From assembly GCA_017883235.1 (NCBI GenBank), contig JADGNY010000076.1:1-32364 (forward strand): DNA of 32,364 nt, given 5' to 3'. The position numbers and the translations under genes were made by a program. Numbering within the stretch: position 1 is the stretch's first letter; each line of letters begins with the position of its first letter. The DNA is from Thermoanaerobaculia bacterium. Lineage in GTDB: Bacteria; Acidobacteriota; Thermoanaerobaculia; Gp7-AA8. Positions 2,884 through 32,363 of the stretch are shown one piece after another. Under the pieces are notes generated by a model. It saw only the letters and a program-made list of their open reading frames with translations. It did not search any database and had not been told where the DNA came from.

Positions 2884-3201
2884 ATGCATCCCGATCTCGA
2901 CGCGATCGTGTCCTCGGACGAGGAAGCGCGATCGCGTGTGGCGCTTGCGGAGAATCGCCGCGAGCGGGAACTGTCAGCCGCACGGGCGGCGCGCGATACG
3001 GCGATCGAAGCACGCCGCCGGGAGGCCGATGAGTCTCTCCAGGGAGAGCTGCAAGCCATCCGCGCGGAAGGCGATGCCCGCGTCGCGGAGATCCTGCGGC
3101 AGCAGGAGCAATACCTGGCAACACTGGCCGATGCCGGGGAGCGAACGATCGACGACGCGGTGGCGCTCTATCTGCGGATCGTCTGCGAGGCGGCGCCATG
3201 A
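2884..3201 (+). CDS. V/A-type ATPase peripheral-stalk subunit (G/H-like coiled coil)
   Basis: The product is 105 residues, highly charged, and rich in Ala, Glu and Arg with heptad-like spacing over about residues 14-90. This is the pattern of the G/H stalk subunit that pairs with subunit E to form the peripheral stator. Sequence similarity in this class is weak, so the call rests mainly on its place as first gene of the ATPase operon and on its coiled-coil composition. A GGAGGG site lies 5 bases before the ATG. Its stop overlaps the start of the C-subunit gene by 4 bases. Confidence 0.7.
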   Translation: MHPDLDAIVSSDEEARSRVALAENRRERELSAARAARDTAIEARRREADESLQGELQAIRAEGDARVAEILRQQEQYLATLADAGERTIDDAVALYLRIVCEAAP

Positions 3202-4094
3202 CGTCGCGCGGCACGCTCGCCTACGCGCACGCGCGCATCCGGGCGGCGAAGTCGCGGCTGCTGACACGCGCCGATGCCGGACCGCTCTTCGCCGCCGCCG
3301 ATGCGGCAGGAGTCCAGCGCGCGGTGGCCGCGCTGGAGATCGAATATCCGATGCAGCGCCTCGTTCGCGTCTATCAGACCGCCATCCGCGGTTACAGCAA
3401 CGGCGCTTCGCTCTTCCGCGCGCTGTTGCGGCGTCACGAGATCGAGAACGTGAAGCTCCTCTGGCGCCTCACGGCCAAGCGCGGCCAGCGTGAAGCGCTC
3501 CCGCGCCTCTGGCTCGACCTAGGCGCGCTGGCGACGGTACCGATGGTCGATGCTGCTACGCCGCGTGAGCTGGCGGAGCATCTTGCGAAGACTCCCTACG
3601 CGGCGATCGCGGCAAGGATCGCCCGAGTGCATGGAAACGACATCGCGGCCGCGGAGCTGGCTTTCGACCGATGGGTGTCGGAGCGGCTGCTCGAGGAATC
3701 GCGGCGCCTCCCTCATCGCGAATCGCTGGCGCGGAGGCTGGTGGAGCTCGTCGTGCGCGAACGCGATGCGGAGATCGTCCGCCGAGGGGCGAAGTGGTAC
3801 GGGCTGGCGAGCGCACAGACAAGAGTGTCTGTGCCACAACAGACAGGAGTGTCTGCGCCACAACAGACAGGAGCGTCTGTGCCACAAGAAGCACAGACAC
3901 TCTTGTCTGTGCAAAAGAAGCTGTGCCGCCGTGCCTTCGTCGGCAGCCCGTTTCTCCTGGCGCCCGCGGTCGCCGTCGTCCTGCTCGCCGAGGAAGAAGT
4001 GCGCGCGGTACAGGCTCTCGTCGAGCGGCAGGGTGACGAGCAGCTCGATGCGCCGATGTTGCGGGCGATCGCGGGATCGCAGATCGGAACCTGA
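3198..4094 (+). CDS. V/A-type ATPase subunit C (AC39 family) carrying an in-frame repeat insertion
   Basis: This 298-residue protein matches the AC39/subunit C family, the funnel that joins the central rotor shaft to the membrane ring. Family-like features include the N-terminal YAHARIRAAKSRLL segment, an IENVKLLWRL helix and a C-terminal PFLLAPAVAVVLLAEEEVR helix. Between GAKWYGLAS and KKLCRRAF lies a foreign stretch of about 35 residues (reading AQTRVSV, QQTGVSAPQ, AQTLLSV) encoded by four palindromes at 3813-3912. Because the insert keeps frame, the gene may still work. It starts by overlapping the preceding stop (ATGA) and sits 2 bases before the I-subunit gene. Confidence 0.8.
   Translation: MTSRGTLAYAHARIRAAKSRLLTRADAGPLFAAADAAGVQRAVAALEIEYPMQRLVRVYQTAIRGYSNGASLFRALLRRHEIENVKLLWRLTAKRGQREALPRLWLDLGALATVPMVDAATPRELAEHLAKTPYAAIAARIARVHGNDIAAAELAFDRWVSERLLEESRRLPHRESLARRLVELVVRERDAEIVRRGAKWYGLASAQTRVSVPQQTGVSAPQQTGASVPQEAQTLLSVQKKLCRRAFVGSPFLLAPAVAVVLLAEEEVRAVQALVERQGDEQLDAPMLRAIAGSQIGT
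3813..3912. repeat. Four REP-like palindromes inside the subunit C gene
   Basis: The outer copies are perfect hairpins: GCACAGACA/TGTCTGTGC at 3813-3834 and at 3891-3912, each with a 4-base loop. Two shorter or mismatched copies (CAGACA-GGAG-TGTCTG and CAGACA-GGAG-CGTCTG) lie at 3840-3855 and 3864-3879. The same family recurs at 18014-18037 and 18092-18115, showing that it is a dispersed repeat rather than part of the gene. Confidence 0.88.
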
Positions 4095-4096
4095 CC

Positions 4097-6094
4097 ATGC
4101 TGCGCTCCGTACCGATGGTCCACTTCCGCGTGCAGGTGCCGAATCGTGATGCGGCGCTGGCCACGCGGGCCATCGCCGCCGAGGGGATGCTGCATCTCGT
4201 CGACATCGCCCACGGCCATGCGCCATTCGATGCCTCGCCTCCCGGCGTGCGGGAGCTCTATGCCTCGTTTCGCGACATCGTTCACCGCATTCACGCCACC
4301 GCGGATCGTCTGGGACTTCAACGCGAAGAGACTCACGGAGCGATCAACGATGACGAGGTGGCCGACTTCGCGGCGGAGCGGGAGCGAATCCTTCTCCTTC
4401 TCGAACCGATGGAGAAGCGGGTACAGGAGCTCGTCCGCCGCGGGAGTGAGGCGCGCGAGAGACTGACGACGGCGCGCGACAACGGCGCGGACGCGGACCG
4501 CGTGCGCGGCGCCGGCGTCGACATCGAGCGCCTCCTTTCCTTGCGGTTCGCCTTCGTCCGCCTCGGAGTCGCTCCTGCCGAGGCACTGAGCGCGATCGTC
4601 ACCATGCTCTCGCCGGCATCGCATGCCATCGTTCCGCTGCATGAGGCCGACGGCAGCGTGCTCTTCGCGGCGGCAGTCCCCGCGGCCGAGCGTGCGCGTC
4701 TCGACGAGGCGATGCGGTTGACGAGCACGAAGCCGATGGCGCTTCCGCGAACGGCGGGCGAGCTCGATCCGGCACGGCTGGCGCGCGAGCTGGCCGAAGC
4801 GGAACAGGCGGCCGCGGATGTTCAACGCGGCATCGAGGAGGAGCGAACGGCTTCAGGGGCTTCGCTCGAAGGGATCGCGCGCCGCGCCGAGACGGCCATG
4901 CTCCTGCTGCAGGCGCAGACGTTCTTCGCCGCGGCGGGGCGGTTCATCGTCATCTCGGGCTGGGTGCCGCGCGACAGCGCCGATCGTCTCGCCGAGCGCG
5001 TGCGCGCGGCAACGAAAGGGCATGCGGTCATCGAGGTCGAGCCGGCGGAGGGCATCCCCGGCGTGAGCGAAGGGACGCTGCGCGTTCCGATCCTGCACCG
5101 CAATCCCCTGCTGCTCCGGCCGTTCGAAAAGCTGATCAACATCTACGGCACGCCTTCGTACGCGGAGGTGGAGCCGACGGCGTTTTTCGCCATCGGATTC
5201 CTGCTGATGTTCGGCCTGATGTTCGGCGACGCCGGCCACGGCGCGGTTCTCTTCTCGGCGGGGTGGTTCCTCTTTCGCTATCTGCCGCGTTTTCTCGACT
5301 ACGGAATCCTGCTGATGGAGGCCGGAGTGGCGTCGGCGGCGTTCGGGATCCTCTACGGCAGCGTCTTCGGCATCCGCGGTCTCATCCCGACCTTGTGGCT
5401 CGAGCCGATCGACAATCTGCCGCGGTTCATGCTGATCGCGGTGGCCTTCGGAGCGGCGGTCGTCACCGGCGGACTTGTCCTCAACATCATCAATAGCTGG
5501 CGGAGCGGTGAGTGGAAGGCGGCGCTCTACGGTCCCCGAGGAGTCACCGGGGCGATGCTGTACTGGATCGTCCTGGTCGTTCTGGCGCGCGCCTTCGTGC
5601 CGGCCACGGTGCGCATCCCGGGCGTTGTCGTGGCAGGGGTGGTGCTCGCGGCGATCGCCGTGATCGCCGGAGCGCGTCCGCTGATGCACATGCTCGGGCG
5701 CGACGCGGAGCCAAGACCGCGCCCGGCTGTGCGGACGACGCCATGGTGGCTGCATGCGCTGGAGGCGTCGGTCGAGCTGGTGGACACGCTCTTCTCGTTT
5801 TTCGCGAACACGATCTCGTTCGTGCGCATCGCCGCGTTCGCGGCGGTCCACGCCGGCGTGTTCATCGCCATCTTCGCACTCGCCGACACGATCGCGGCGA
5901 TGCGCTTCGGCGGCGTGCTGTCGATCGTGGTCCACGTCGCCGGGAACGTGCTGGTGATTCTGCTGGAGGGACTGACGGTATCGGTGCAGGTCCTCCGGCT
6001 CGAGTACTACGAATTCTTCGGGAAGTTCTTCCGCGGCGGCGGCGAGCCCTACGCTCCGCTCACGCTGCGGTCAGGGAGTGAACGTCATGCGTAA
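4097..6094 (+). CDS. V/A-type ATPase subunit I (membrane stator, subunit a homologue)
   Basis: The 665-residue product has the two-part layout of subunit I: a hydrophilic N-terminal half with long coiled coils (about 1-320) that meets the peripheral stalks, and a C-terminal membrane half with several helices (including FFAIGFLLMFGLMFGDAGHG, about 366-385). In the family a conserved buried arginine in the membrane half helps move ions past the ring. The segments LFSFFANTISFVRIAAFA and LEGLTVSVQVLRLEYYEFFGKF are the family's typical C-terminal helices. Length is normal. It overlaps the K-subunit start by 8 bases. Confidence 0.92.
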   Translation: MLRSVPMVHFRVQVPNRDAALATRAIAAEGMLHLVDIAHGHAPFDASPPGVRELYASFRDIVHRIHATADRLGLQREETHGAINDDEVADFAAERERILLLLEPMEKRVQELVRRGSEARERLTTARDNGADADRVRGAGVDIERLLSLRFAFVRLGVAPAEALSAIVTMLSPASHAIVPLHEADGSVLFAAAVPAAERARLDEAMRLTSTKPMALPRTAGELDPARLARELAEAEQAAADVQRGIEEERTASGASLEGIARRAETAMLLLQAQTFFAAAGRFIVISGWVPRDSADRLAERVRAATKGHAVIEVEPAEGIPGVSEGTLRVPILHRNPLLLRPFEKLINIYGTPSYAEVEPTAFFAIGFLLMFGLMFGDAGHGAVLFSAGWFLFRYLPRFLDYGILLMEAGVASAAFGILYGSVFGIRGLIPTLWLEPIDNLPRFMLIAVAFGAAVVTGGLVLNIINSWRSGEWKAALYGPRGVTGAMLYWIVLVVLARAFVPATVRIPGVVVAGVVLAAIAVIAGARPLMHMLGRDAEPRPRPAVRTTPWWLHALEASVELVDTLFSFFANTISFVRIAAFAAVHAGVFIAIFALADTIAAMRFGGVLSIVVHVAGNVLVILLEGLTVSVQVLRLEYYEFFGKFFRGGGEPYAPLTLRSGSERHA

Positions 6095-6425
6095 ACGACT
6101 CTTCTGGATTCTGGCGGCGGCAGCGCCGGTCATCGTCACCGTCATCGTGCTGCCGCTCCTCGCCGCGGCTGCCCCCCCGCGCGCGGCGGCGCTTCCCGTG
6201 CCGCCGGATGTGATGCGGTGGGGATTCATGGCCGCGGCGATCGTGGCCGGACTGGCCGCCTGCGGTGCGGCCTATGCCGTGGCCATCGTCGGAGCGGCGG
6301 CGATGGGGGCGGTGGCGGAGAAGCCGGAGACGGCAGGCCGCGCGCTGATCTTCGTCGGCCTGGCCGAGGGGATCGCCATCTACGGGCTGATCATCGCCAT
6401 CATGATCCTCGGGCGGCTCGGATGA
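6087..6425 (+). CDS. V/A-type ATPase subunit K (membrane ring proteolipid)
   Basis: The 112-residue protein has a hydrophobic N-terminal segment (about 5-30) that resembles the cleaved leader seen on some bacterial V-type proteolipids. A helical hairpin (about 43-78 and 84-109) follows. Glu94 in GLAEGIAIYG is in the position of the ion-binding carboxylate. One hairpin per protomer fits an A-type or bacterial ring rather than the doubled eukaryotic form. Whether H+ or Na+ is used cannot be settled by eye. The ATG at 6087, with GGGAG about 8 bases upstream, is preferred over a GTG at 6078. Confidence 0.9.
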   Translation: MRKRLFWILAAAAPVIVTVIVLPLLAAAAPPRAAALPVPPDVMRWGFMAAAIVAGLAACGAAYAVAIVGAAAMGAVAEKPETAGRALIFVGLAEGIAIYGLIIAIMILGRLG

Positions 6426-6628
6426 GACCGTTCGTGATCGGAACGAGCGACGACGTCACCGGCTTCGGGCTGGCCGGCGTCGATGGCACGATCTGCGCGA
6501 CACCGGACGAGGCCCGCCAGGCGATGGAGCGGGCTGGCGAGGATGCGCTGGTCATCCTCTCAGCGGTGTTTGCGCGCAGCGTGCCGCACGACGACACCCT
6601 GACGATCGTGCTGCCTTCGAGGCCGTGA
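6422..6628 (+). CDS. V/A-type ATPase subunit F (short form)
   Basis: The 68-residue product begins with the F-subunit pattern (FVIGTSDDVTGFGLAGV), continues with a LVILSAVFA strand and ends near IVLPSRP. This covers the Rossmann-like core that sits on the central shaft. F subunits are usually about 100 residues with a mobile C-terminal helix implicated in regulation. Here that helix is absent or minimal. It overlaps both neighbours (ATGA at the start, TGATG at the end), so it is translated with the operon. Confidence 0.8.
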   Translation: MRPFVIGTSDDVTGFGLAGVDGTICATPDEARQAMERAGEDALVILSAVFARSVPHDDTLTIVLPSRP

Positions 6629-7185
6629 TGCGGACGCTCGGAAGCCCGGCATCCGTCGTCGCCGCGATTCGCGAAGAAGCGGACGCGGAAGTCGAACGGA
6701 CCGAGCAGACGACGGCGGACGAGCTGGCGTCGATCCGCGACGCCGCTGCATCCGCGAGCGTTGCCATCGCCGATCGCGAAGCGCGGCTGACGGCGGCGCG
6801 GCGGGCAAACGAGGAGCGCATCGCCAGGCAGGAGTGGGACGGACATCGCGCCACGATCGAGCAGCGTGAGACGTGGATTCAGCGCGTGGTGGCAAAGGCG
6901 CACCAGACGTGGACGCGCGGAGAGCCGGCGAAACGGCGGGAGCAACTCAATGCGCTGGTCCGCGATGCCCGGTCGCGATTGCCCGCGGGAGCATCCGTGC
7001 TGTCCGTCAGCGCGGGCGACCGGGAACTGGTCGATGCCGGCGACGCACGCGTCATCACGGCGACGATCGCGGGCGGATGCATCGTCACGATCGGCGACAC
7101 GTCGTTCGATAACAGCTTCGAGGCGCGGTCGCGCCGGCTGGAGCCGGAGTGGCGCAACGCGCTGAGCGGGATGTACAAGCCATGA
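6628..7185 (+). CDS. V/A-type ATPase subunit E (peripheral stalk)
   Basis: The product is 185 residues. A long charged helix (about 8-75) would pair with the G/H-like subunit. A globular C-terminal domain with the family ending FDNSFEARSRRLEPEWRN would cap the A/B head. Length and layout match subunit E. The ATG at 6628 overlaps the F-subunit stop. The in-frame GTG one codon earlier is less likely. The stop overlaps the A-subunit start. Confidence 0.87.
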   Translation: MRTLGSPASVVAAIREEADAEVERTEQTTADELASIRDAAASASVAIADREARLTAARRANEERIARQEWDGHRATIEQRETWIQRVVAKAHQTWTRGEPAKRREQLNALVRDARSRLPAGASVLSVSAGDRELVDAGDARVITATIAGGCIVTIGDTSFDNSFEARSRRLEPEWRNALSGMYKP

Positions 7186-8870
7186 GCGATCCGGCTGCAC
7201 GAGCGGGCGTGATCACCGAGATCTCCGGTTGGGTCGTCCGTGCGCGTGCCGAGGTTCCGCTTGCGCTGCGCGAGGTCGTTCTGGTGGGTGACGAGCGCCT
7301 CATCGGCGAAGTCATCGCGCTCAATCGGGGCGAGGTGACGATTCAGGTCTACGAAGAAACCGAAGGTGTGGCCCCCGGCCATCCGCTGTACGCGACCGGC
7401 GAGCCGCTCTCCCTCGAGCTCGGCCCCGGACTCCTCGGCGGCGTCTTCGACGGCGTGCAGCGCCCGCTGCGAATGCTCGCCGAACAGGAGGGCGACTTCA
7501 TCGGCCGCGGGAGCCGGCTGCCCGCGCTCGATCGCGAGAAGCTGTGGGACTTCAAGCCGGCCATCGAAGCAGGGAGCGATGTGGAGCCGGGCCGCGTTCT
7601 CGGCACCGTCATGGAGACGCCGGCGCTTCCGCATCCGATCATCGTCCCCGAGGGTGTGAGCGGGAACGTGAAATGGATCGCGGCGGCAGGACCGCGCCGC
7701 ATCACCGACGTCATCGCCCGTCTCGATGACGGCCGCGAGCTGACGATGCTGCAGAAGTGGCGCGCCCGCGTGCGGCGCCCGGTGCGCGAGCGCCTGGTGC
7801 CGGATGCGCCGCTCATCACCGGGCAACGCGTGCTCGACACCTTCTTCCCGCTGGCCCGCGGCGGGACGGCGGCCATGCCCGGCGGCTTCGGCACCGGCAA
7901 AACGGTGACGCAGCATCAGCTCTGCCGCTGGGCGGAGGCCGACGTGATCATCTTCGTCGGCTGCGGGGAGCGCGGCAATGAGATCACGCAGCTCATCGAC
8001 GAGCTGCCGCGTCTCATCGATCCGCGCACGAAGCGCCTCCTCGCCGAACGCAGCATCCTGATCGCCAATACGTCGAATATGCCGGTGTCGGCGCGCGAGG
8101 CGTCGCTCTTCACCGGCGTGACGATCGGCGAGTATTACCGCGACCTCGGATACGACGTTCTGCTTCTGGCCGATTCGATCTCGCGGTGGGCCGAGGCGTT
8201 GCGCGAGATCTCGGGACGGCTGGGCGAGATGCCGGCGGAGGAAGGCTATCCGCCGTATCTCTCCAGCGCGCTGGCGGCGTTCTTCGAACGGGCCGGCCGC
8301 GTGGTGACGCTTTCCGGCGGCCACGGATCGCTCACGGTCATCACCGCTATCTCCCCGCCGGCCGGCGATCTCACCGAGCCGGTGACGCGGCACGCGGCGC
8401 GCTTCGTCCGCACCTTCTGGACGCTCGACCGCCAGCTCGCCGCCGCCCGCGTCTTTCCCGCGGTCAGCACGCGCGCTTCGTACAGCGAAGTCCCGCCGGG
8501 CGTGACCAACTGGTGGTCCTCGCAGGTCTCGCCGGGATGGGCGGCGGCGCGCGAAGAAGCGATGACGTTTCTCGAGGAAGCATCGCGGATCGAGGAGACG
8601 GCGCGGCTCGTCGGAGCCGACAGCCTCCCCGAGCGCGAGCGATTCCTCCTGCGGCTGGCCGACACGTTTCAGGAGGGCTTTCTCCAGCAGAACGCCTACG
8701 ACGCGGTCGATGCCTGCTGCACCCCGGCGCGCCAGATGGCATTGCTCGAGACGTTCATGCGCGTGCGCCGCGAAGGGCTGGAGCAGATCGCCAAGGGAAC
8801 CGCGGCGAGCGCGCTGCCGATCGACTTTGCCGCTCTGCAGCGGATGAAGACGGCGAAGGAGCTGCCATGA
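7182..8870 (+). CDS. V/A-type ATPase catalytic subunit A
   Basis: The 562-residue product has the Walker A loop GGFGTGKT (234-241), the catalytic GCGERGNE motif with the general-base Glu263, and the ADSISRWAEALREISGRLGE block. These identify the ATP-hydrolysing or -synthesising subunit of the A3B3 head. The non-homologous insert typical of A subunits (about 115-200) is present, which separates it from F-type beta. The ATG at 7182 overlaps the E stop (ATGA). A frame open further upstream is a read-back into the E gene. Confidence 0.96.
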   Translation: MSDPAARAGVITEISGWVVRARAEVPLALREVVLVGDERLIGEVIALNRGEVTIQVYEETEGVAPGHPLYATGEPLSLELGPGLLGGVFDGVQRPLRMLAEQEGDFIGRGSRLPALDREKLWDFKPAIEAGSDVEPGRVLGTVMETPALPHPIIVPEGVSGNVKWIAAAGPRRITDVIARLDDGRELTMLQKWRARVRRPVRERLVPDAPLITGQRVLDTFFPLARGGTAAMPGGFGTGKTVTQHQLCRWAEADVIIFVGCGERGNEITQLIDELPRLIDPRTKRLLAERSILIANTSNMPVSAREASLFTGVTIGEYYRDLGYDVLLLADSISRWAEALREISGRLGEMPAEEGYPPYLSSALAAFFERAGRVVTLSGGHGSLTVITAISPPAGDLTEPVTRHAARFVRTFWTLDRQLAAARVFPAVSTRASYSEVPPGVTNWWSSQVSPGWAAAREEAMTFLEEASRIEETARLVGADSLPERERFLLRLADTFQEGFLQQNAYDAVDACCTPARQMALLETFMRVRREGLEQIAKGTAASALPIDFAALQRMKTAKELP

Positions 8871-10267
8871 CCGGGATTGCCGCCCGCCACGACAATCATG
8901 CCGGGATCGAGCGCCGCGGACTGGCAGAGCTGCGCGGACCGCTGGCGTTCGTCGAGGGCGTTGCCGGCGTCGCCTTCCACGAATTCGTCGATCTGGAAGG
9001 CTCGGACGGCGTAACACGGCCCGGGCGCGTTCTCTCGACGACGGAGCGCGGCGCGATCGTCGAGGTGTTCGGCGTGACCGACGGCCTGCAACTCGGCGCG
9101 TCGTCTGTCCGCTTCCACGGCCGTCCGATGCGTTTCGGCGTCGGCCCCGAGCTCCTGGGACGCGTTTTCGACGGACTGGGATCTCCGCGCGACTCGCTTC
9201 CACCGCCGGCATGCGTCGAGCGCCGCACGATCGGCGGATCGCCGATCAACCCCTGCCGCCGCGCCTATCCGCGCGATTTTCTAGAGACGGGGGTCTCGGC
9301 GATCGACGCGCTGAACAGCATCGTCCTCGGCCAGAAGATCCCGATCTTCACGGAATCGGGTCTGGCACACGATGCGCTGGCGATGCAGATCATCCGTCAG
9401 GCGCGCGCGCCGTCCGTCGAGAAGTTCGCCGTCGTCTTCGTCGCTCTCGGGCTTCCGCGCGACGTGGCCACCCGCTACCTCGACGATCTGCAGACGAGTG
9501 GTTCACGCGGACGCCTCATCGCCTTCCTGAATCTGGCGGACGATCCGACCGCCGAGCGGCTCATCACACCGCGCCTGGCGCTGACGGCGGCGGAGTACCT
9601 CGCCTTCGACGCCGGCTATCACGTCCTGGTCGTGCTGCACGACATCACGAACTACGGTGAAGCGCTCCGGGAGATTTCTGCCGCACGCGGCGAAGTGCCA
9701 AGCCGCAAGGGTTATCCCGGCTATCTCTACAGCGACCTTGCCTCGCTGTTCGAACGCGCCGGCCGCATCGCCGGCCGCCCCGGCTCGATCACGCAGATTC
9801 CGATCGTGACCCTCCCCTCGGGCGATCTCACACACCCGATTCCCGACCTGACCGGTTACGTGACCGAAGGACAGATCGTGCTCGACCGCGAGATCGCGCG
9901 GCGGGGCGTCTACCCGCCGGTTGCGATTCTCTCCTCCCTCTCCCGCCTGATGTCGGACGGGATCGGCGAGGGCCGGACGCGCGACGATCATCCCGACGTC
10001 GCCAAACAGCTCTACGCCGCCGTGGCCCGCGTGGAGAGGGCGCGCGGGCTGGCGTCGATCATCGGCATCGACGAGCTGACGGAGATCGAGCGGACCTATC
10101 TCCGTTTCGGCGAGTCATTCGAGCGCGAGCTCCTTACACAGCGCGGCGATGAGTCGCGCACGATCGGCGAGACGCTCGACCGCGCCTGGCGCGTCCTGCA
10201 TGAATTGCCGCGGGCGGAGCTGACGCGCGTCCGTGACGAGATCCTGGAGAAACACTACGCGCCATGA
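8867..10267 (+). CDS. V/A-type ATPase regulatory subunit B
   Basis: The 466-residue product is the non-catalytic nucleotide-binding partner of subunit A. It has the beta-barrel start (RGPLAFVEGV), the LLGRVFDGLGSPRD motif, FLETGVSAIDALNSIVLGQK and IFTESGLAHDALAMQIIRQA. It lacks a Walker A loop, as is normal for B. DITNYGEALREISAARGEVP and GRPGSITQIPI are further family blocks. The true start at 8867 overlaps the A stop by 4 bases. A much longer frame upstream is a shadow of subunit A. Confidence 0.96.
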   Translation: MTGIAARHDNHAGIERRGLAELRGPLAFVEGVAGVAFHEFVDLEGSDGVTRPGRVLSTTERGAIVEVFGVTDGLQLGASSVRFHGRPMRFGVGPELLGRVFDGLGSPRDSLPPPACVERRTIGGSPINPCRRAYPRDFLETGVSAIDALNSIVLGQKIPIFTESGLAHDALAMQIIRQARAPSVEKFAVVFVALGLPRDVATRYLDDLQTSGSRGRLIAFLNLADDPTAERLITPRLALTAAEYLAFDAGYHVLVVLHDITNYGEALREISAARGEVPSRKGYPGYLYSDLASLFERAGRIAGRPGSITQIPIVTLPSGDLTHPIPDLTGYVTEGQIVLDREIARRGVYPPVAILSSLSRLMSDGIGEGRTRDDHPDVAKQLYAAVARVERARGLASIIGIDELTEIERTYLRFGESFERELLTQRGDESRTIGETLDRAWRVLHELPRAELTRVRDEILEKHYAP

Positions 10268-10872
10268 TCGGAGCCGCCACCCGCTCGCGCCTTTTCGAGC
10301 TCCGCCGCGACCGCGGCGCCGCGCGCCGCAGCGCGGAGCTGCTCGACCGCAAGCGCGAGGTTCTCCTGCGCGAGATCTCCCGCCGCCAGCGGTTGCTGGA
10401 GACGATTCGCACCGTCACGGCCGCGCGCTACCTCGAAGCGCACCGTCTCCTGCGGATCGCCCGCGTCGAGCTCGGAATGCGCGGCGTGGAAGCCGCCGCC
10501 CTGGCCCAGCCGCCGCGCTTCACTCTCACGGAGAGCAACCGTTCGGTGATGGGTGTGCGCATCCCCGAGCTCGATGCCACCGTCCAGCCGTACCGCGCCT
10601 TCTACGGCGCCGCCGCAACGACGGAATCACTGGACGAGGCCGGCGCCGCGTTTCAGACCCTGCTCCCCGACGTCGTCGCCCTCGCCCAGGAGGAGATCGC
10701 CGTGGCGCGACTATCGATGGCGATGCGCAAAACGACGAAGCTTTGCAATGCGCTGCAGAAAGTCGTCCTTCCGAGAATCGAGCAGGAGATCCGGGCGATC
10801 GTCGACGGGATCGAAGAGGACGAGCGTGATGACGCGGTGCGGCGGAGAGTGACGATGGGGAGGGGGCGGTGA
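10264..10872 (+). CDS. V/A-type ATPase subunit D (central rotor shaft)
   Basis: The product is 202 residues, with two long helical segments at the N-terminus (ATRSRLFELRRDRGAARRS, about 4-75) and at the C-terminus (about 140-195) that would fold as the antiparallel coiled coil of the rotor axle. A short middle part separates them. NALQKVVLPRIEQEIRAI is the typical C-terminal helix. The start overlaps the B stop (ATGA). It closes the operon, and 8 bases after its stop begins REP-type sequence. Confidence 0.93.
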   Translation: MIGAATRSRLFELRRDRGAARRSAELLDRKREVLLREISRRQRLLETIRTVTAARYLEAHRLLRIARVELGMRGVEAAALAQPPRFTLTESNRSVMGVRIPELDATVQPYRAFYGAAATTESLDEAGAAFQTLLPDVVALAQEEIAVARLSMAMRKTTKLCNALQKVVLPRIEQEIRAIVDGIEEDERDDAVRRRVTMGRGR

Positions 10873-10974: not shown

Positions 10975-11568
10975 ATGCGCCACGACAACTTCATTTACAC
11001 AGATAAGCGATTCGTCCGTAAATCACGAGGCCGACTGCCTCACTGGCAGCTCGACGAGGCGACCTACTCAATCACTTTCCGCCTACGCGATTCGTTGCCG
11101 CGCGACGTCGCGGCCGCGCTCATTCTCGAGCGTGAGCAGTCGATGCGGTTGAGGATGAATCCATCCGAGCGTGCCGAAGTCGATCGGCTCTTCAGCCTCA
11201 GACTCGATTCCTATCTGGACCAGGGATACGGCAGTTGCATTCTTCGTGTCGACAGAAACGCAGAGCTCGTAGCGGACGCTCTCCGCCACTTCGATCGCGT
11301 CCGATACGAGCTGTACGCATGGTGCGTGATGCCGAATCACGTTCACGCCATGATGCACCTGCAACACGGCGCGGATCTCGAGTACGTACTGCATTCGTGG
11401 AAGTCGTTCACGGCGCACCAGATCGGCCAGGGCGTCATCTGGCAGCGGGAGTACTTCGATCGCATCGTTCGGGATGCAGAGGATTACTGGTCCACGCGCA
11501 GTTATGTCTTGAACAATCCATTCAAAGCCGGATTGCGAAATTGGAAGTGGGTGGGCGCGCGCGAATAG
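10975..11568 (+). CDS. REP-associated tyrosine transposase (RAYT, Y1 HUH family)
   Basis: The 197-residue product has the HUH metal-binding motif NHVHAMM (His122-x-His124) following a YELYAWCVMP strand. The C-terminal REYFDRIVRDAEDYW block and the YVLNNPFKAGL motif contain the probable nucleophile Tyr177. This is the signature of the TnpA_REP family, single-copy relatives of IS200/IS605 transposases that nick and join REP hairpins with a GTAG- or GGAG-like tetranucleotide at the stem foot. The gene looks intact. REP-type palindromes flank it, and the doublet downstream has a GGAG foot, so the likely substrate is adjacent. Confidence 0.9.
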   Translation: MRHDNFIYTDKRFVRKSRGRLPHWQLDEATYSITFRLRDSLPRDVAAALILEREQSMRLRMNPSERAEVDRLFSLRLDSYLDQGYGSCILRVDRNAELVADALRHFDRVRYELYAWCVMPNHVHAMMHLQHGADLEYVLHSWKSFTAHQIGQGVIWQREYFDRIVRDAEDYWSTRSYVLNNPFKAGLRNWKWVGARE

Positions 11569-11594
11569 CAGGCGAAGCGCGCAGCGCGCAGCGC

Positions 11595-11762
11595 CGGAGC
11601 GCTGGCGTCTCGCCGGCTGGCCCGGGGGCGTCTCGCCCCCGTGCTGGCCTACGCTGATGTAACGTAAGTCGCCCCGCCCCCCCTGTTACCAGGCCGAGTC
11701 TGGATCTCGCCAGACCGGGGGCGAGACGCCCCCGGGCCAGCCGGCGAGACGCCAGCGCTCCG
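11595..11762. repeat. BIME-like pair: two 47-bp perfect inverted REP arms
   Basis: Positions 11595-11641 and 11716-11762 are exact reverse complements over 47 bases, separated by 74 bases. Each arm holds two hairpins built on GGCGTCTCGCC: GCTGGCG-TCT-CGCCGGC (one mismatch) and CGGGGGCG-TCT-CGCCCCCG (perfect). Each arm begins with CGGAG. The spacer has a third small palindrome (GTCTGG/CCAGAC). The right arm ends one base before the stop codon of the convergent RND gene, so the element probably ends transcription from both sides. Confidence 0.93.
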
Positions 11763-17631: not shown

Positions 17632-18009
17632 ATGCCGGCGATGACCCGAAAGAAGACCAGACACGAAACGCTGTCAACCGAGGTGATCGACCTCGTAGCC
17701 GCCCGTTTCCGCACCCTCGGCGAGCCGCTCCGCATCCGCATCCTGCAGGCCCTGCAGGGCGGCGAACGCAACGTCACCGCGCTCGTCGACGGAATCGGCT
17801 CCACGCAGCCGAATATCTCCAAGCACCTGCGCATTCTTCAGGAGGCCGGGCTGGTCGGCCGCAGGCAGGACGGCAACAACGTCTACTACTCCATCGCCGA
17901 TCCGACCGTCTTCGATCTCTGTGACGCTGTCTGTAACAGCATCGGTGCACGTTTGACACAGCATGCTTCGATCGCTACGCAGCTTCGTCGGCGGGCACGG
18001 AGGGGGTAG
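17632..18009 (+). CDS. ArsR/SmtB-family repressor
   Basis: The 125-residue product has a winged helix-turn-helix with the family recognition motif TQPNISKHLRILQEAGLVGRR (split as TQPNISKHLRIL and QEAGLVGRR, about 58-78) and the wing RQDGNNVYYSI. Two cysteines, Cys97 and Cys101, lie in the last helix (FDLCDAVC) and could bind a metal or form a persulfide or disulfide. The usual ELCVCDL arsenic site of helix 3 is missing. It probably represses the divergent DUF2892-TolC-adaptor-RND operon through the palindromes at 17562-17586. The 3' region is overlapped antisense by the radical SAM reading frame. Confidence 0.87.
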   Translation: MPAMTRKKTRHETLSTEVIDLVAARFRTLGEPLRIRILQALQGGERNVTALVDGIGSTQPNISKHLRILQEAGLVGRRQDGNNVYYSIADPTVFDLCDAVCNSIGARLTQHASIATQLRRRARRG

Positions 18010-19935
18010 ATGTGGCACAGACACTCCTGTCTGTGCCGGGTCTCGCCACGACTCAGATCGCAAGCCCACAGCGGCGGTCGGCTCCGGCCGGGGCACAGAC
18101 AAGAGTGTCTGTGCCACATTGGTCCCTGGCTTACGAGACGCCGAGACCGCGAGACCCCGAGACCCCGAGACCCCGCCGAAAACCTCCCGCAACAGCAACT
18201 TCAAAATCCCGGTGATCCGGAAGTTGCGCAGGAACGCTCCCGGCGCAAAGAGCTCAGACTTGTCGTTGATGGTCCCCTCGGAGAAGGCGCGCACTTCGGC
18301 GGAATCGAGCTCGCCATTCGCCAGCAGCTTGCGCCGGATCGCACGCGCGGTACCCATGCGCTTGCTCACGGCGGCGGCACAGTCGTCGCTGATGCGGCCG
18401 TATCGCCGCTTCAGCTCGTTCAACCGTTCGGCGGCGTCATAGGTGGCATCGACGATTTCGGCGCGCGTCATCCACCGCGTCTCGTAGTTGAGGATCGACT
18501 CCCAGTCGCGCTGCTCCAGAAGCGCGCGATGCTCGGCCAGCGTGTGCGCACGCATGATGTAGCCATGCCGCTCGGCACTCTCGAAGCCGTTGCTGCCGGG
18601 ATCGATGAAGGGCCCCATCGGCGTGATGAAGGCCGAGAGCCGGCGGTCGAAACGGGTGAAGAGACGCTCGACGTATCCGACCGTCTCCAGGACGTTGCCG
18701 TAGGTCTGGCCCGGCAGTCCGATCATGAAGAAGAGATCGAGATTCTCGCAGCGGAGGGCGAGCATCGCCTCGATGGCCTCCTCCATCCTGGCATTGGCGA
18801 AATGCGCTTTGCCGAGCCGTGCCCGGACCACCTCATCGTGGCTCTCCGGCGATAGCTCCGCACCCCAGTGCCGGATCGATGCGTCGATGCGCGCGACGTA
18901 TTCGCGGCTGGGGGGGTCGAAGAACTCGAAGACGAGGCGATTGTTCACCGGCGCGGCCGCGAGCGCATCGAGCACGTCGCCCGCGTACGCTTCGCCGCCG
19001 TCACGGAGATCGCCGACCAGGAAGATCGGCGCGCGCGTGAGCTCGGCGAGCTGGCGCACCTGCGCCGCCACCGACGCGGGGCTGCGCAACAACGGGTACT
19101 GGCCCGGCATGAAGCGCTGAAATGCCGCGTGCGATGCACCGCAGGTAACGCAACCGCGCGCACAGCCTCGCACGGTGAAGACGGCCGTAATCGGATGCCC
19201 CCACCAGGTGTGAAAGGGCACGGTGCTCCAGAAGTCGAGATGCGACGTGACGCCAGCGACCATCGCGCCGAGGTCGTAGGTACAGTCGTCGAGCGACGCC
19301 ACCGTTCCCTCGGCGTTCACGCGGGTCCGGCCGTTCTCCTTCCACGTCAATCCAGGCACACGCTCGAATTGCCGCGCGCCCTTCAGCTCGCGGACGAGCG
19401 CCAGGAGCGCCGGCTCGGTGACGCTGCCGCGGAGAACGAAGTCGACGGCGTCGTCACGGATCAGCTCTTCATGAAAGTAGGTCGAGGAGATGCCGCCGAA
19501 GACGATCGGGATGTCGGGATGCAGCTTCTTGAGCAGCGCCGCCACGGCCGGCCCGCCATGCGCATGCGGCAGCCAGTGAAAATCGATCCCGAACAGCGTC
19601 GGCCGCAGCTTCCGCAGCAACCGCTCCGGCCGGAAGCGCCGGCTGCGCATCATCAACAGTGCGAGATTGATGATGCGCACCCGATAACCATGCCGCCGAA
19701 GGTACGCAGCCAGCGTGAGAAACCCGACCGGATACATCTCAAACACCGGCGACGACGGAATGACATCGCTGATCGGCCCGTAGAAGATGGTCCGCTCCCG
19801 GAAGTCAAACACGCTGGGGGGATGAATGAGGACGACGTCCGGCTGTGGCACCGCTCTAAGGTGCGTCCGAGGTGCCTTCGCAGGTACGACGGTTGTCACA
19901 GGAGGGCGTGATGGTCGAGCGATTGAGCCTCTCAC
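17674..19935 (-). CDS. B12-binding-domain radical SAM protein with an anomalous C-terminal extension
   Basis: The open frame encodes 753 residues. Residues about 32-185 form a cobalamin-binding-like domain (VLIHPPSVFDFRE; GIDFHWLPHAHG). A radical SAM core follows with Cys258, Cys262 and Cys265 (CARGCVTC) for the 4Fe-4S cluster, an E-x-FDPPS strand and a C-terminal module ending near LLLREVFG (about 590). Such enzymes use SAM and cobalamin for methyl transfer or other radical chemistry; the substrate is unknown. Beyond about residue 592 the frame crosses 8-bp tandem units and two REP palindromes, then runs 336 bases antisense to arsR. That tail of about 150 residues is probably not native. The GTG start at 19935 is uncertain; no good ribosome site was found. 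Confidence 0.75.
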   Translation of the reverse strand: MRGSIARPSRPPVTTVVPAKAPRTHLRAVPQPDVVLIHPPSVFDFRERTIFYGPISDVIPSSPVFEMYPVGFLTLAAYLRRHGYRVRIINLALLMMRSRRFRPERLLRKLRPTLFGIDFHWLPHAHGGPAVAALLKKLHPDIPIVFGGISSTYFHEELIRDDAVDFVLRGSVTEPALLALVRELKGARQFERVPGLTWKENGRTRVNAEGTVASLDDCTYDLGAMVAGVTSHLDFWSTVPFHTWWGHPITAVFTVRGCARGCVTCGASHAAFQRFMPGQYPLLRSPASVAAQVRQLAELTRAPIFLVGDLRDGGEAYAGDVLDALAAAPVNNRLVFEFFDPPSREYVARIDASIRHWGAELSPESHDEVVRARLGKAHFANARMEEAIEAMLALRCENLDLFFMIGLPGQTYGNVLETVGYVERLFTRFDRRLSAFITPMGPFIDPGSNGFESAERHGYIMRAHTLAEHRALLEQRDWESILNYETRWMTRAEIVDATYDAAERLNELKRRYGRISDDCAAAVSKRMGTARAIRRKLLANGELDSAEVRAFSEGTINDKSELFAPGAFLRNFRITGILKLLLREVFGGVSGSRGLAVSASRKPGTNVAQTLLSVPRPEPTAAVGLRSESWRDPAQTGVSVPHLPPPCPPTKLRSDRSMLCQTCTDAVTDSVTEIEDGRIGDGVVDVVAVLPAADQPGLLKNAQVLGDIRLRGADSVDERGDVAFAALQGLQDADAERLAEGAETGGYEVDHLG
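18014..18115. repeat. Two REP-like palindromes between arsR and the radical SAM core
   Basis: GGCACAGACA/TGTCTGTGCC occurs at 18014-18037 and at 18092-18115, each with perfect 10-base arms and a 4-base loop. They belong to the family found inside the ATPase subunit C gene at 3813-3912. The first lies 4 bases past the arsR stop and may act as its terminator. Confidence 0.88.
18135..18174. repeat. Five tandem 8-bp units
   Basis: Five head-to-tail octamers are visible: GAGACGCC, GAGACCGC, then GAGACCCC three times. On the minus strand they encode low-complexity GVSGSRGLAVSAS near the end of the radical SAM frame. With an 8-base unit, a change in copy number would shift the frame. Confidence 0.8.
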
Positions 19936-29311: not shown

Positions 29312-30575
29312 TTAGTTGCCCATCGTCAACACGCGCTGTTCGTTCGGATTGATCAGTCCTTCCCTCGAAAGAAGGAACAAGAGCGTTCCGTTGACTTTCT
29401 TGCTATCCGCCGGTTCCGGCCGTCGATAACGTAGTCTACCGCTGTCCCGTTGGCGAGCGTGACGTGGGTGAGGTTCCCCAGTTCGTCGTAGGTGAAGGCT
29501 GTTGCCCCATTCGCGTCGGTCCGTGTCGATAGCTCGCCGGCCGCGGTGTAGGCGTAGCTCGTGGCGTTGTAGGTGAGCAGGCGATCCTGGGCGTCATAGC
29601 TACCTACTTCGGCGCCCTCCGCCGTGGTGCGCGTGAGGCGGTTGCCGTTCCCGTCGTACGTGTAGTGGCTGATGTTCACGCCGTCCTTCGTGACGTCGGT
29701 GAGCCGCCCCGAGGGGTCGTAGCCGTAACTGAACTGCGAGGTAACGCCGGCGACGTTCTCGCTCTTCTGAGCGATCCGTCCGACGTCGTCGCGTGTGTAC
29801 TGCTGGTTGAACACCTCGGCTCCTCCGTAGGTCGCCACGTAACTCAGCGGCTCGGCGAAGGAATTGTACGTCCATGTGTCGTTCAGGCTTCCGATCGAGG
29901 TGCCGGTGAGCAGGCCGTTCTGCGGGTCGCGGCTGAGCGCCAGGTCGCCGGCTCCGACGAGCAGCCGGTCCTCATCGTAGGAGAAAGCGATGGCGCTGCA
30001 GGCCAGGGTTACGGCCGTCGGGCAGTTCACCGTCTCCGCGCTGACGGCGAAGTTGTTGTCGTAGTCCCAGTGCATCGATCCAACCACGCCTCCGGTCCAG
30101 GTTGCGTCGGTCAGGAGCGAGCCATCGTAGGGGAAGGTCATCAGGCCCCCATCGGGGGCGGTGATGGAGGTTAGATTGCCGCTCGTGGCGTCGTGCGCAT
30201 ACTGGTAGGTTCCCCTTGCGATCGCGAGCGTGGCGAGCCGTCCGGCGCCGTCGTATCCGAGCGCCACCGTGCTGCTGTCGGGCCTGGTGACCAGTGTCAA
30301 TTGCTTGTCGCGGTTGTAGGCGTATTGGGTTGCACCACCGTTGGGAACCGGCTGAACAACTCGACTGCTCCGTAGGTCACCACGTAACTCAGCGGCTTAG
30401 CGAAGGAATTGTACGTCCATGTGTCGTTCAGGTTCCGATCAAGGTGCCAGTCCGGAGGTGGTTCTGCGGATCGGCTGAGGACGAGGTCCACCGGCTCCGA
30501 CTGCAGCCGGTCCTCGTCGCAAGAGAAGCTGACGTTGCAGGCCAGGGTGAACGCGGTCGGGCAGTTCGCCCACAC
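29312..30575 (-). pseudogene. Frameshifted, internally duplicated Rhs/YD-repeat fragment
   Basis: The reading carries many YD repeats (YGYDPSGRLTDVTKDGV, YTYDGNGNRLTR, FTYDELGNLTHVTLANG). The frame breaks near 29395-29410, where IDGRNRRIA should continue as KKVNGT, and again near 30335-30350. The region 30351-30575 is a decayed direct copy of about 29803-30032 (shared LNDTWTYNSFA(E/K)PLSYV). The stretch 29443-29600 is about 90 percent identical by eye to 32211-32364 of the Rhs gene at the window edge. This is a displaced Rhs C-terminal segment, not a working toxin. The last reading stops at 29312. Confidence 0.82.
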
Positions 30576-30619
30576 CGACGCTCGGCACGCGCGGCCCGGC
30601 TCATGTCTTCCGAAGCCGT

Positions 30620-30645
30620 GCTCAGGCAACTCGAGACACCTGAGC
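30620..30645. terminator. Small stem-loop after the candidate immunity gene
   Basis: GCTCAGG (30620-30626) and CCTGAGC (30639-30645) pair across 12 bases, about 45 bases past the stop of the exported gene at 30688. There is no T-run. It is only a possible transcription end. Confidence 0.25.
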
Positions 30646-30687
30646 GGCGAAGCGCGCCAACCAGTTTGCGACTTGTGCACAACTTCC

Positions 30688-31305
30688 CTAGGTCGTTTCG
30701 GTCTTATAAATCTCGATTTCGTCGACACCATCTGTACTGCTGTGAAGGTTAACCCCCACCACAACATCTACGTAGATGGTGCGACCGTTTCCCATGACCT
30801 CGCGAAGCGACGTGTGCCGGTACGAACACGAGTGCGCATCACTCTTGAAAGGAACGCCCATAAGGCGCCTTACCGCTTGGCGACTCATCCCCAGTCGAAG
30901 CAGTCCGGACGTTGTCATCGATCGCCTGACGAGCGGTGAGCGAGCGCAGTCACGACCAAGTCGGTGCGAAACGAAGCGAATCTGAGAGATCGTCTTCCAT
31001 GCGCCCGCTGATCCGGAAGTGAAGATCATGGTGGTATTGTCACCAGACAACGCAGACACGTAACAAATGCTCCGGGGACTCTCGTCAGTGCCATCCTCGT
31101 TGAACACGTGACTTTCCCCAAGAAGTCGCTGAACATCGCTAAACGTCGATTTCCCTACTTCGAAGCCAATGATCGTAAGATTTCGCCGAACGCTGAATGA
31201 GGTCTGTGACTGAGTTGCCGCAGTGACTGTTGGCGGTTGCACCACACATGGCGCCAACAGCAAGCCGAGCAATGGCAGAGCTATGACTCGCGTTTGAGAG
31301 ATCAT
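30688..31305 (-). CDS. Exported candidate immunity protein for the Rhs toxin
   Basis: The 205-residue product starts with a signal peptide (VIALPLLGLLLAPC; Cys20 could be a lipobox cysteine) and so should reach the periplasm. Two BamE/SmpA-like motifs are visible: FEVGKSTFSDVQRLLGE (48-64) and LRLGMSRQAVRRLMGVP (136-152). The protein may therefore be a tandem of two such small domains. Its ATG overlaps the stop of the Rhs toxin gene (ATGA), the strict coupling seen for toxin-immunity pairs. A periplasmic location fits protection against a peptidoglycan-directed toxin. The pairing is inferred from position, export and overlap. Confidence 0.7.
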   Translation of the reverse strand: MISQTRVIALPLLGLLLAPCVVQPPTVTAATQSQTSFSVRRNLTIIGFEVGKSTFSDVQRLLGESHVFNEDGTDESPRSICYVSALSGDNTTMIFTSGSAGAWKTISQIRFVSHRLGRDCARSPLVRRSMTTSGLLRLGMSRQAVRRLMGVPFKSDAHSCSYRHTSLREVMGNGRTIYVDVVVGVNLHSSTDGVDEIEIYKTETT

Positions 31306-32363
31306 TTTTCGACAACCGTTAGTGTGCCACCACCCGCGTCGTCGATCGCATCCCGGGTGGATCTGCTCATGATAATGCAGCCTTCCGACGCCTCGCCTGG
31401 ATGTGATGCACTGTCACCGTGAATCAAGAATCCACTTCTTTCAGGCGAACACATGTTGTTCCCCGAGTCCGGAGTCAACGGAAGTACTTTGGGGCCGTGA
31501 GTCGTCGTGTCATACGCTGTCCCGATACTGTAGGTGCCACGAGGTATAGGATCCTCGTCAATATCGCATTGGTTTGACGGGCTGTTCTTCTTGGCGCCCT
31601 TACCTGAGTAGCCTGCTTCGTCGACAATTCCTTTTTTTGTTCCATTATCAACACAGGTTAGTTGTCCCGTCTCTTGATGGTCTGTGCACGTCGCCGTCAA
31701 ACCGGTCGCGTCAACGAGATTAACCGGGTCGGCGAAAACATACCCGTAGAGATTAGCGCCTCGCCCGAGAAATGAAACCGGATCCTTGGCTGTCCATCGG
31801 CCCGTTTGTGGGTCGTAGTCCCTGGCGCCGAAGCGAACTAGTTTCGTGCCAGCATCGTATAAGCCGCCGGCGAAGCCGAACGGCTGAAAGCCGGGGTTGG
31901 TGTCGCTCAGGACATTGCCGAATTCGTCAAAATCCATCCGTTGCGCGACGCTTCCGTCGTCGACTCTAATGATCAGGCGTGGGCTTCCACGGTGGTCGGC
32001 GATCACACGATAGGTAATATCTCCCTTGATGATCAAATCTGGAGTGTTCGGATGCGTAGCGTACACAAAACGTGTTACGACATCGCCATTGGCGTCGAGC
32101 TCGGCGGCCGGACTGACGCGGCCCGTGTAGATGAACCGCTGAGCAAATGTTCCATTAATTTTCTCGCCAACTCGTTTATTCTGGCCGTCGATGAGGTAGT
32201 CGATTGCTGGTCCGTTGGCGAGCGTAACGTGGTTGAGGTTGCCCAGTTCGTCGTAGGTGAAGGACGTTGTCCCGTTCGAGTCGGTCCGTGTCGAAAGCTC
32301 GCCAGCCGCGGTGTAGGCGTAGCTCGTCGCGTTGTAGGTGAGCAGGCGGTCCTGGGCGTCGTA
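31302..32363 (-). CDS. Rhs protein C-terminus with a Tlde1/DUF2778-like toxin domain (5' end beyond window)
   Basis: The frame is open without a stop from 31302 to the window edge, so this is the last 353 codons of a larger gene. The core part has YD repeats and the classical Rhs end: RLIIRVDDGSVAQRMDFDEF, DYDPQTGRWTAKDPVSFLG, LYGYVFADPVNLVDATGL. Past 31698 comes a new tip of 131 residues. It carries PRGTYSIGTAYD, SGFLIHGD and ASEGCIIM, with His and Cys 14 residues apart (Cys codon 31377-31379). This matches Tlde1-type L,D-transpeptidase-like effectors that damage peptidoglycan. Delivery (T6SS or other) cannot be told from the window. Confidence 0.82.
   Translation of the reverse strand, partial: YDAQDRLLTYNATSYAYTAAGELSTRTDSNGTTSFTYDELGNLNHVTLANGPAIDYLIDGQNKRVGEKINGTFAQRFIYTGRVSPAAELDANGDVVTRFVYATHPNTPDLIIKGDITYRVIADHRGSPRLIIRVDDGSVAQRMDFDEFGNVLSDTNPGFQPFGFAGGLYDAGTKLVRFGARDYDPQTGRWTAKDPVSFLGRGANLYGYVFADPVNLVDATGLTATCTDHQETGQLTCVDNGTKKGIVDEAGYSGKGAKKNSPSNQCDIDEDPIPRGTYSIGTAYDTTTHGPKVLPLTPDSGNNMCSPERSGFLIHGDSASHPGEASEGCIIMSRSTRDAIDDAGGGTLTVVEK

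Follow-up and report, generated by a model that had tools for sequence, protein, structure and literature searches.

The subunit C gene of a V/A-type ATPase in G000, a Thermoanaerobaculia (Acidobacteriota) genome, carries a doublet of REP palindromes within its coding region. Very probably, this doublet is a REPIN mobilised by a RAYT, or the recombination product of one, that entered a linker of the protein with the reading frame kept and has been tolerated there as selfish DNA. The window, meaning the whole stretch of 32,364 nucleotides analysed here, is contig C128 of this 6.9-Mb genome of 246 contigs.

A REP doublet in the subunit C gene

The host gene (3198–4094, plus strand) encodes 298 amino acids, matches the vATP-synt_AC39 profile (Pfam PF01992, E 1.3e-18), and is open across the insert. 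It lies in a V/A-ATPase operon with the gene order G, C, I, K, F, E, A, B, D (2884–10872, plus strand), in which G, C, I, K, E, A, and D are Pfam matches, while F and B were named from sequence only. Both the profile match and the adjoining subunit genes place the product among the V/A-ATPase C (AC39) subunits. A fold search with a low-confidence AlphaFold model (mean pLDDT 53) gave Thermus subunit C (1r5z/1v9m) as the best match, with a Z of about 7.5. As a hint only, the same weak model depicts residues 202–228 as a loop and residues 230–248 as the C-terminal helix, which begins with the last REP peptide. As the initial annotation had described, the operon is intact apart from the insert.

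The insert contains four GCACAGACA-type palindromes, and the pattern GGCACAGACANNNNTGTCTGTGCC, with up to three mismatches, has four matches in the window and none in shuffled sequences. Two of the palindromes are perfect 22-mers, GCACAGACAAGAGTGTCTGTGC and GCACAGACACTCTTGTCTGTGC, which are 100% complementary, lie in opposite orientations 78 nt apart with 56 nt between them, and form a REPIN spanning 3813–3912. The first (copy 1; 3813–3834, plus strand, “>” orientation) has the perfect consensus and encodes AQTRVSV, while the last (copy 4; 3891–3912, minus strand, “<” orientation) closes the REPIN and reads AQTLLSV on the plus strand. They enclose two degenerate copies at a spacing of 24 nt, namely copy 2 (3839–3863, plus strand, encoding QTGVSAPQ) and copy 3 (3863–3887, plus strand, encoding QTGASVPQ), each 92% identical to copy 1. 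Every spacing is divisible by three, and the insert keeps the frame and introduces no stop codon. The presence of four palindromes inside the coding region without loss of frame, as originally noted, is thus confirmed by these copies and by the open 298-residue frame.

Two orthologues of this subunit C were found, one in the Thermoanaerobaculia MAG Chersky.9_17 (G002; 70% identity) and one at locus L083 (65% identity). The latter, a close orthologue on JADGRS010000361.1, is filed under a Burkholderiales MAG, possibly through a binning error. Comparison with relatives had been proposed in the initial annotation, and codon-level alignment with L082 and L083 identified residues 206–241 (3813–3920, plus strand) as a lineage-specific segment whose REP peptide is missing from both orthologues. 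The interval from GLAS to LCRRAF comprises 36 residues in the window as against 22 and 18 in the two orthologues, where the site holds the native sequence VAPxxxxDITxLRRERLR. On this alignment, the REPIN stands in place of a native linker of 18–22 residues, with a net gain of 14–18 residues, although the closest orthologue is only 70% identical and gives the pre-insertion linker only approximately. The addition of about 35 residues that was first proposed is therefore too large as a net change, since a native linker was lost. Such a loss is at odds with simple insertion, which would not be expected to remove native sequence. No target-site duplication was seen at the insert.

Downstream of the insert, comparison with G002 gave a dN of 0.112 and a dS of 0.88 (dN/dS about 0.13), and upstream a dN of 0.203 and a dS of 0.85, these pairwise values averaging in the time that preceded the insertion. 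Downstream constraint is no worse than upstream, and the codons after the insert remain under coding constraint. This bears on an alternative that we consider unlikely, in which a dispensable V-ATPase has lost its activity through the insert, or will soon do so, with the open frame a matter of luck and the operon an early pseudo-operon. The enzyme had been described as essential-looking, a description that we do not retain: because an F-type ATP synthase gamma subunit is also encoded in G000, and because subunit C of the V/A type was found in only three of 18 genomes of the family, the V/A-ATPase is probably accessory and the host gene non-essential. The F-type subunit and the sporadic occurrence of the V/A type would suit inactivation, as would the replacement by REP sequence of DITxLRRERLR, which is common to both relatives. 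Against it stand the absence of any stop or frameshift from the subunit C gene, the constrained downstream codons, and the same pattern in PurH (see below), whose loss would be costly.

The repeat family and its candidate mobiliser

The exact palindrome has 191 copies in the 6.9 Mb of G000, where a reversed-pattern control had none. It occurs in 76 and 44 copies in two congeneric genomes and in 3–128 copies in five other genomes of the family, with control patterns again at zero, and no matches were found beyond the family among 61 genomes. At 22–24 nt, the palindrome has the length of a REP (20–40 nt), and its copy number is correspondingly high. The 60 sampled loci contain 38 doublets in opposite orientation, mostly 75–100 nt apart and in both “><” and “<>” forms; this arrangement is that of REP doublets (REPINs; PMC3116915). 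The stem is followed on one side by a conserved tail, CACATTG (CAATGTG on the other strand), at about 60–96% per position. Neither a GTAG nor a CGTC terminal tag was found in the GCACAGAC REP, which sets it outside the tag super-families. By eye, degenerate inner copies like those of subunit C are also present in doublets L049, L053, and L058, and the spacer of the REPIN at L054 (G000:C59) holds a further local repeat of tandem GTTTGCGGCACGTGCG-like units. The openness of the REP in all six frames was considered as a special adaptation and rejected, as every shuffle of the arm is equally open; it is trivial because the 5′ arm contains no T.

The window has a second REPIN of this family (18015–18114), close to where a gene for a B12-binding radical SAM protein has its 3′ end (ORF 17677–19851, minus strand). 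The radical SAM frame continues past this REPIN, antisense to an ArsR-like gene, and the true gene end is uncertain. Elsewhere in the window, 29353–32363 contains, by eye, several similar RHS/YD-repeat gene pieces, one of which runs off the contig end.

A RAYT gene was located in G000 at L058 (1738–2241; NF047646, E 3e-24), flanked on both sides by GCACAGAC REPs, the last of which lies 11 bp past the stop codon. Its orthologue in G002 (78% identical) is flanked by the same REPs, and a RAYT fragment in G008 (76%) has one such REP adjoining. At the REP density of G000, the chance that a random gene has a REP on each side within 200 bp is about 3e-5. The family accordingly has a cognate RAYT in both L058 and G002, and the L058 gene, on a contig other than that of the window, is the likely mobiliser of the GCACAGAC REP. 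The RAYT of the window itself (10975–11568) was rejected as the most likely mobiliser, being flanked by a different palindrome, GGGGGCGTCTCGCCCCC, with no adjoining GCACAGAC REP. In this RAYT-like Y1 transposase region (10975–11760), GGGGGCGTCTCGCCCCC occurs at 11624 and in reversed form at 11717. Contig C181 has a copy of the gene with 92% identity, and motifs of the GGCGTCTCGCC/GGCGAGACGCC type are common, with 116 matches in 0.95 Mb.

REP copies in other genes

The census of insertion sites covered 1.16 Mb in all, comprising 60 loci at listed exact REP copies in contigs C1–C114, the window, and 60 further stretches, with genes called by a simple purpose-made codon model. Although the coding fraction of this sample is 0.81, 66 of its 81 REP clusters are intergenic, with 10 inside called genes and five at gene edges; the probability of 15 or fewer genic clusters under random insertion is 9e-34. 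Genic copies are therefore strongly depleted yet not absent. The initial view that REP elements are normally extragenic holds for the GCACAGAC family, with the subunit C copy among the exceptions, and the depletion points to a purging of out-of-frame insertions.

Six of the 10 proteins with an internal cluster have a family match, namely subunit C, PurH, pyruvate:ferredoxin oxidoreductase (PFOR), a TIGR00275 flavoenzyme, and STT3-like and Alg9-like proteins. The remaining four are L103 with a weaker RmlD match, the radical SAM protein of the window (18015) with the REP beyond its matched domain, and L033 and L036 without a match. A further REP, in a family-2 glycosyltransferase (L027), was missed by the gene caller, found by frame score, and confirmed by alignment. 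Relative to orthologues, PurH has an almost clean net gain of 35 residues between its two domains and the glycosyltransferase a net gain of 17, while in the TIGR00275 flavoenzyme a single REP with its tail replaced about four residues for a net gain of six. REP peptides are seen in all three forward frames (AQTxxSV, HRQECLC, and GTDxxVCA). An insertion of this kind had been called unusual, but several further enzymes of G000, PurH and PFOR among them, carry the same REP in frame, and intragenic in-frame REPs have been published (PMC3733652, PMC10969869).

The inter-domain linker of PFOR was compared across L061, L180, L181, and L183. In G000, it holds a GCACAGAC REP pair (L061, about 1450–1530). 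The same linker in G012 holds a GTAGGACAGGCG...CGCCTGTCC palindrome with tandem pieces, which recurs in a sample of G012 and is absent from one of G000. In G001, it holds a TGTCATCCTGAG...CTCAGGATGAC inverted repeat whose terminus recurs in a sample of G001 and occurs in G000 too, and in G002 no such repeat was found in the linker. The tandem-copy repeat of the PFOR linker is a GTAG-type GGACAGGCG REP. Three unrelated palindromic repeats thus occupy one linker in three relatives. Speculatively, and with odds that we regard as rather low, certain protein linkers could be places where unrelated palindromic mobile repeats land again and again and succeed one another in frame, with selfish sequence swapped for native linker, and could so drive the evolution of loops in Acidobacteriota. 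On this view, the PFOR linker would offer the clearest example, with subunit C as a further instance of replacement.

A co-opted role for the REP peptide or for the hairpins of its mRNA, such as translation pausing or the tuning of subunit stoichiometry at the C-terminal domain, seems very improbable. The RNA hairpins of the REP segment in subunit C are indeed strong (z -5.55), but hairpins arise automatically from palindromes, the REP is found in unrelated proteins in several frames, and the relatives manage without it. An assembly artefact, by a chimeric join at a repeat, is scarcely credible: some contig ends do carry REPs (C33, C57), but the two flanks here are correctly ordered, in-frame parts of a single gene, where a chimera would have brought unrelated sequences together, and other genes provide independent instances of the same pattern.

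Proposed history and relation to known systems

Under the preferred reading, that of a tolerated REPIN, a non-autonomous element would have been moved by its cognate RAYT, an HUH/Y1 tyrosine transposase, into the inter-helix linker of subunit C; possibly, the insert is instead the recombination product of a REPIN. About 54–66 nt of native linker would have been lost with the reading frame retained, either at insertion or later, the relatives being too distant to tell. If translated, the REP peptide would presumably leave a functional subunit C with a longer, probably disordered loop, with the beginning of the C-terminal helix re-formed by the last REP-encoded residues. The insert would then be neutral for an ATPase that presumably still works. 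Across the genome, insertions that break genes would be purged, and those that are in frame and sited in linkers would survive.

In kind, the phenomenon is already known and ordinary. REPs, single or as dimers, lie in frame in conserved genes (in repair genes for dimers) and encode roughly 20–30 residues (PMC3733652), and linkers or loops have been suggested as the sites that tolerate them (Di Nocera et al. 2013; PMC3733652). Those GTAG/CGTC REPs are likewise short palindromes, single or dimeric, in frame within genes. The GCACAGAC REP behaves alike but has neither tag, a CACATTG tail, and a Thermoanaerobaculia host. As described in PMC10969869, which cites Ogata et al. (2000/2002), the Rickettsia palindromic elements (RPEs), the classic example, are palindromes of about 150 bp that sit in frame across many unrelated genes within a single genome, nearly half of them intragenic in R. 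conorii. Compared with that description, the REPIN here is shorter (about 100 nt), is intragenic in a minority of copies, and has a REP-flanked RAYT. In Pseudomonas fluorescens, REP doublets are the replicating unit and the RAYT gene is flanked by its own REPs (PMC3116915), two features common to both systems; the Pseudomonas analysis dealt with REPINs in extragenic space, whereas here some copies lie within genes.

Neither the GCACAGAC repeat family nor its Thermoanaerobaculia host is described in the literature cited here (PMC3733652, PMC10969869, PMC3116915). With our findings, the known range of in-frame intragenic REPs comes to include a REP/RAYT pair of Acidobacteriota outside both named tag super-families. 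Comparison with REP-free orthologues of PurH, the TIGR00275 flavoenzyme, the glycosyltransferase, and subunit C displays net gain, replacement, and the use of three frames, and suggests that REPs may replace native linker residues rather than merely add to them.
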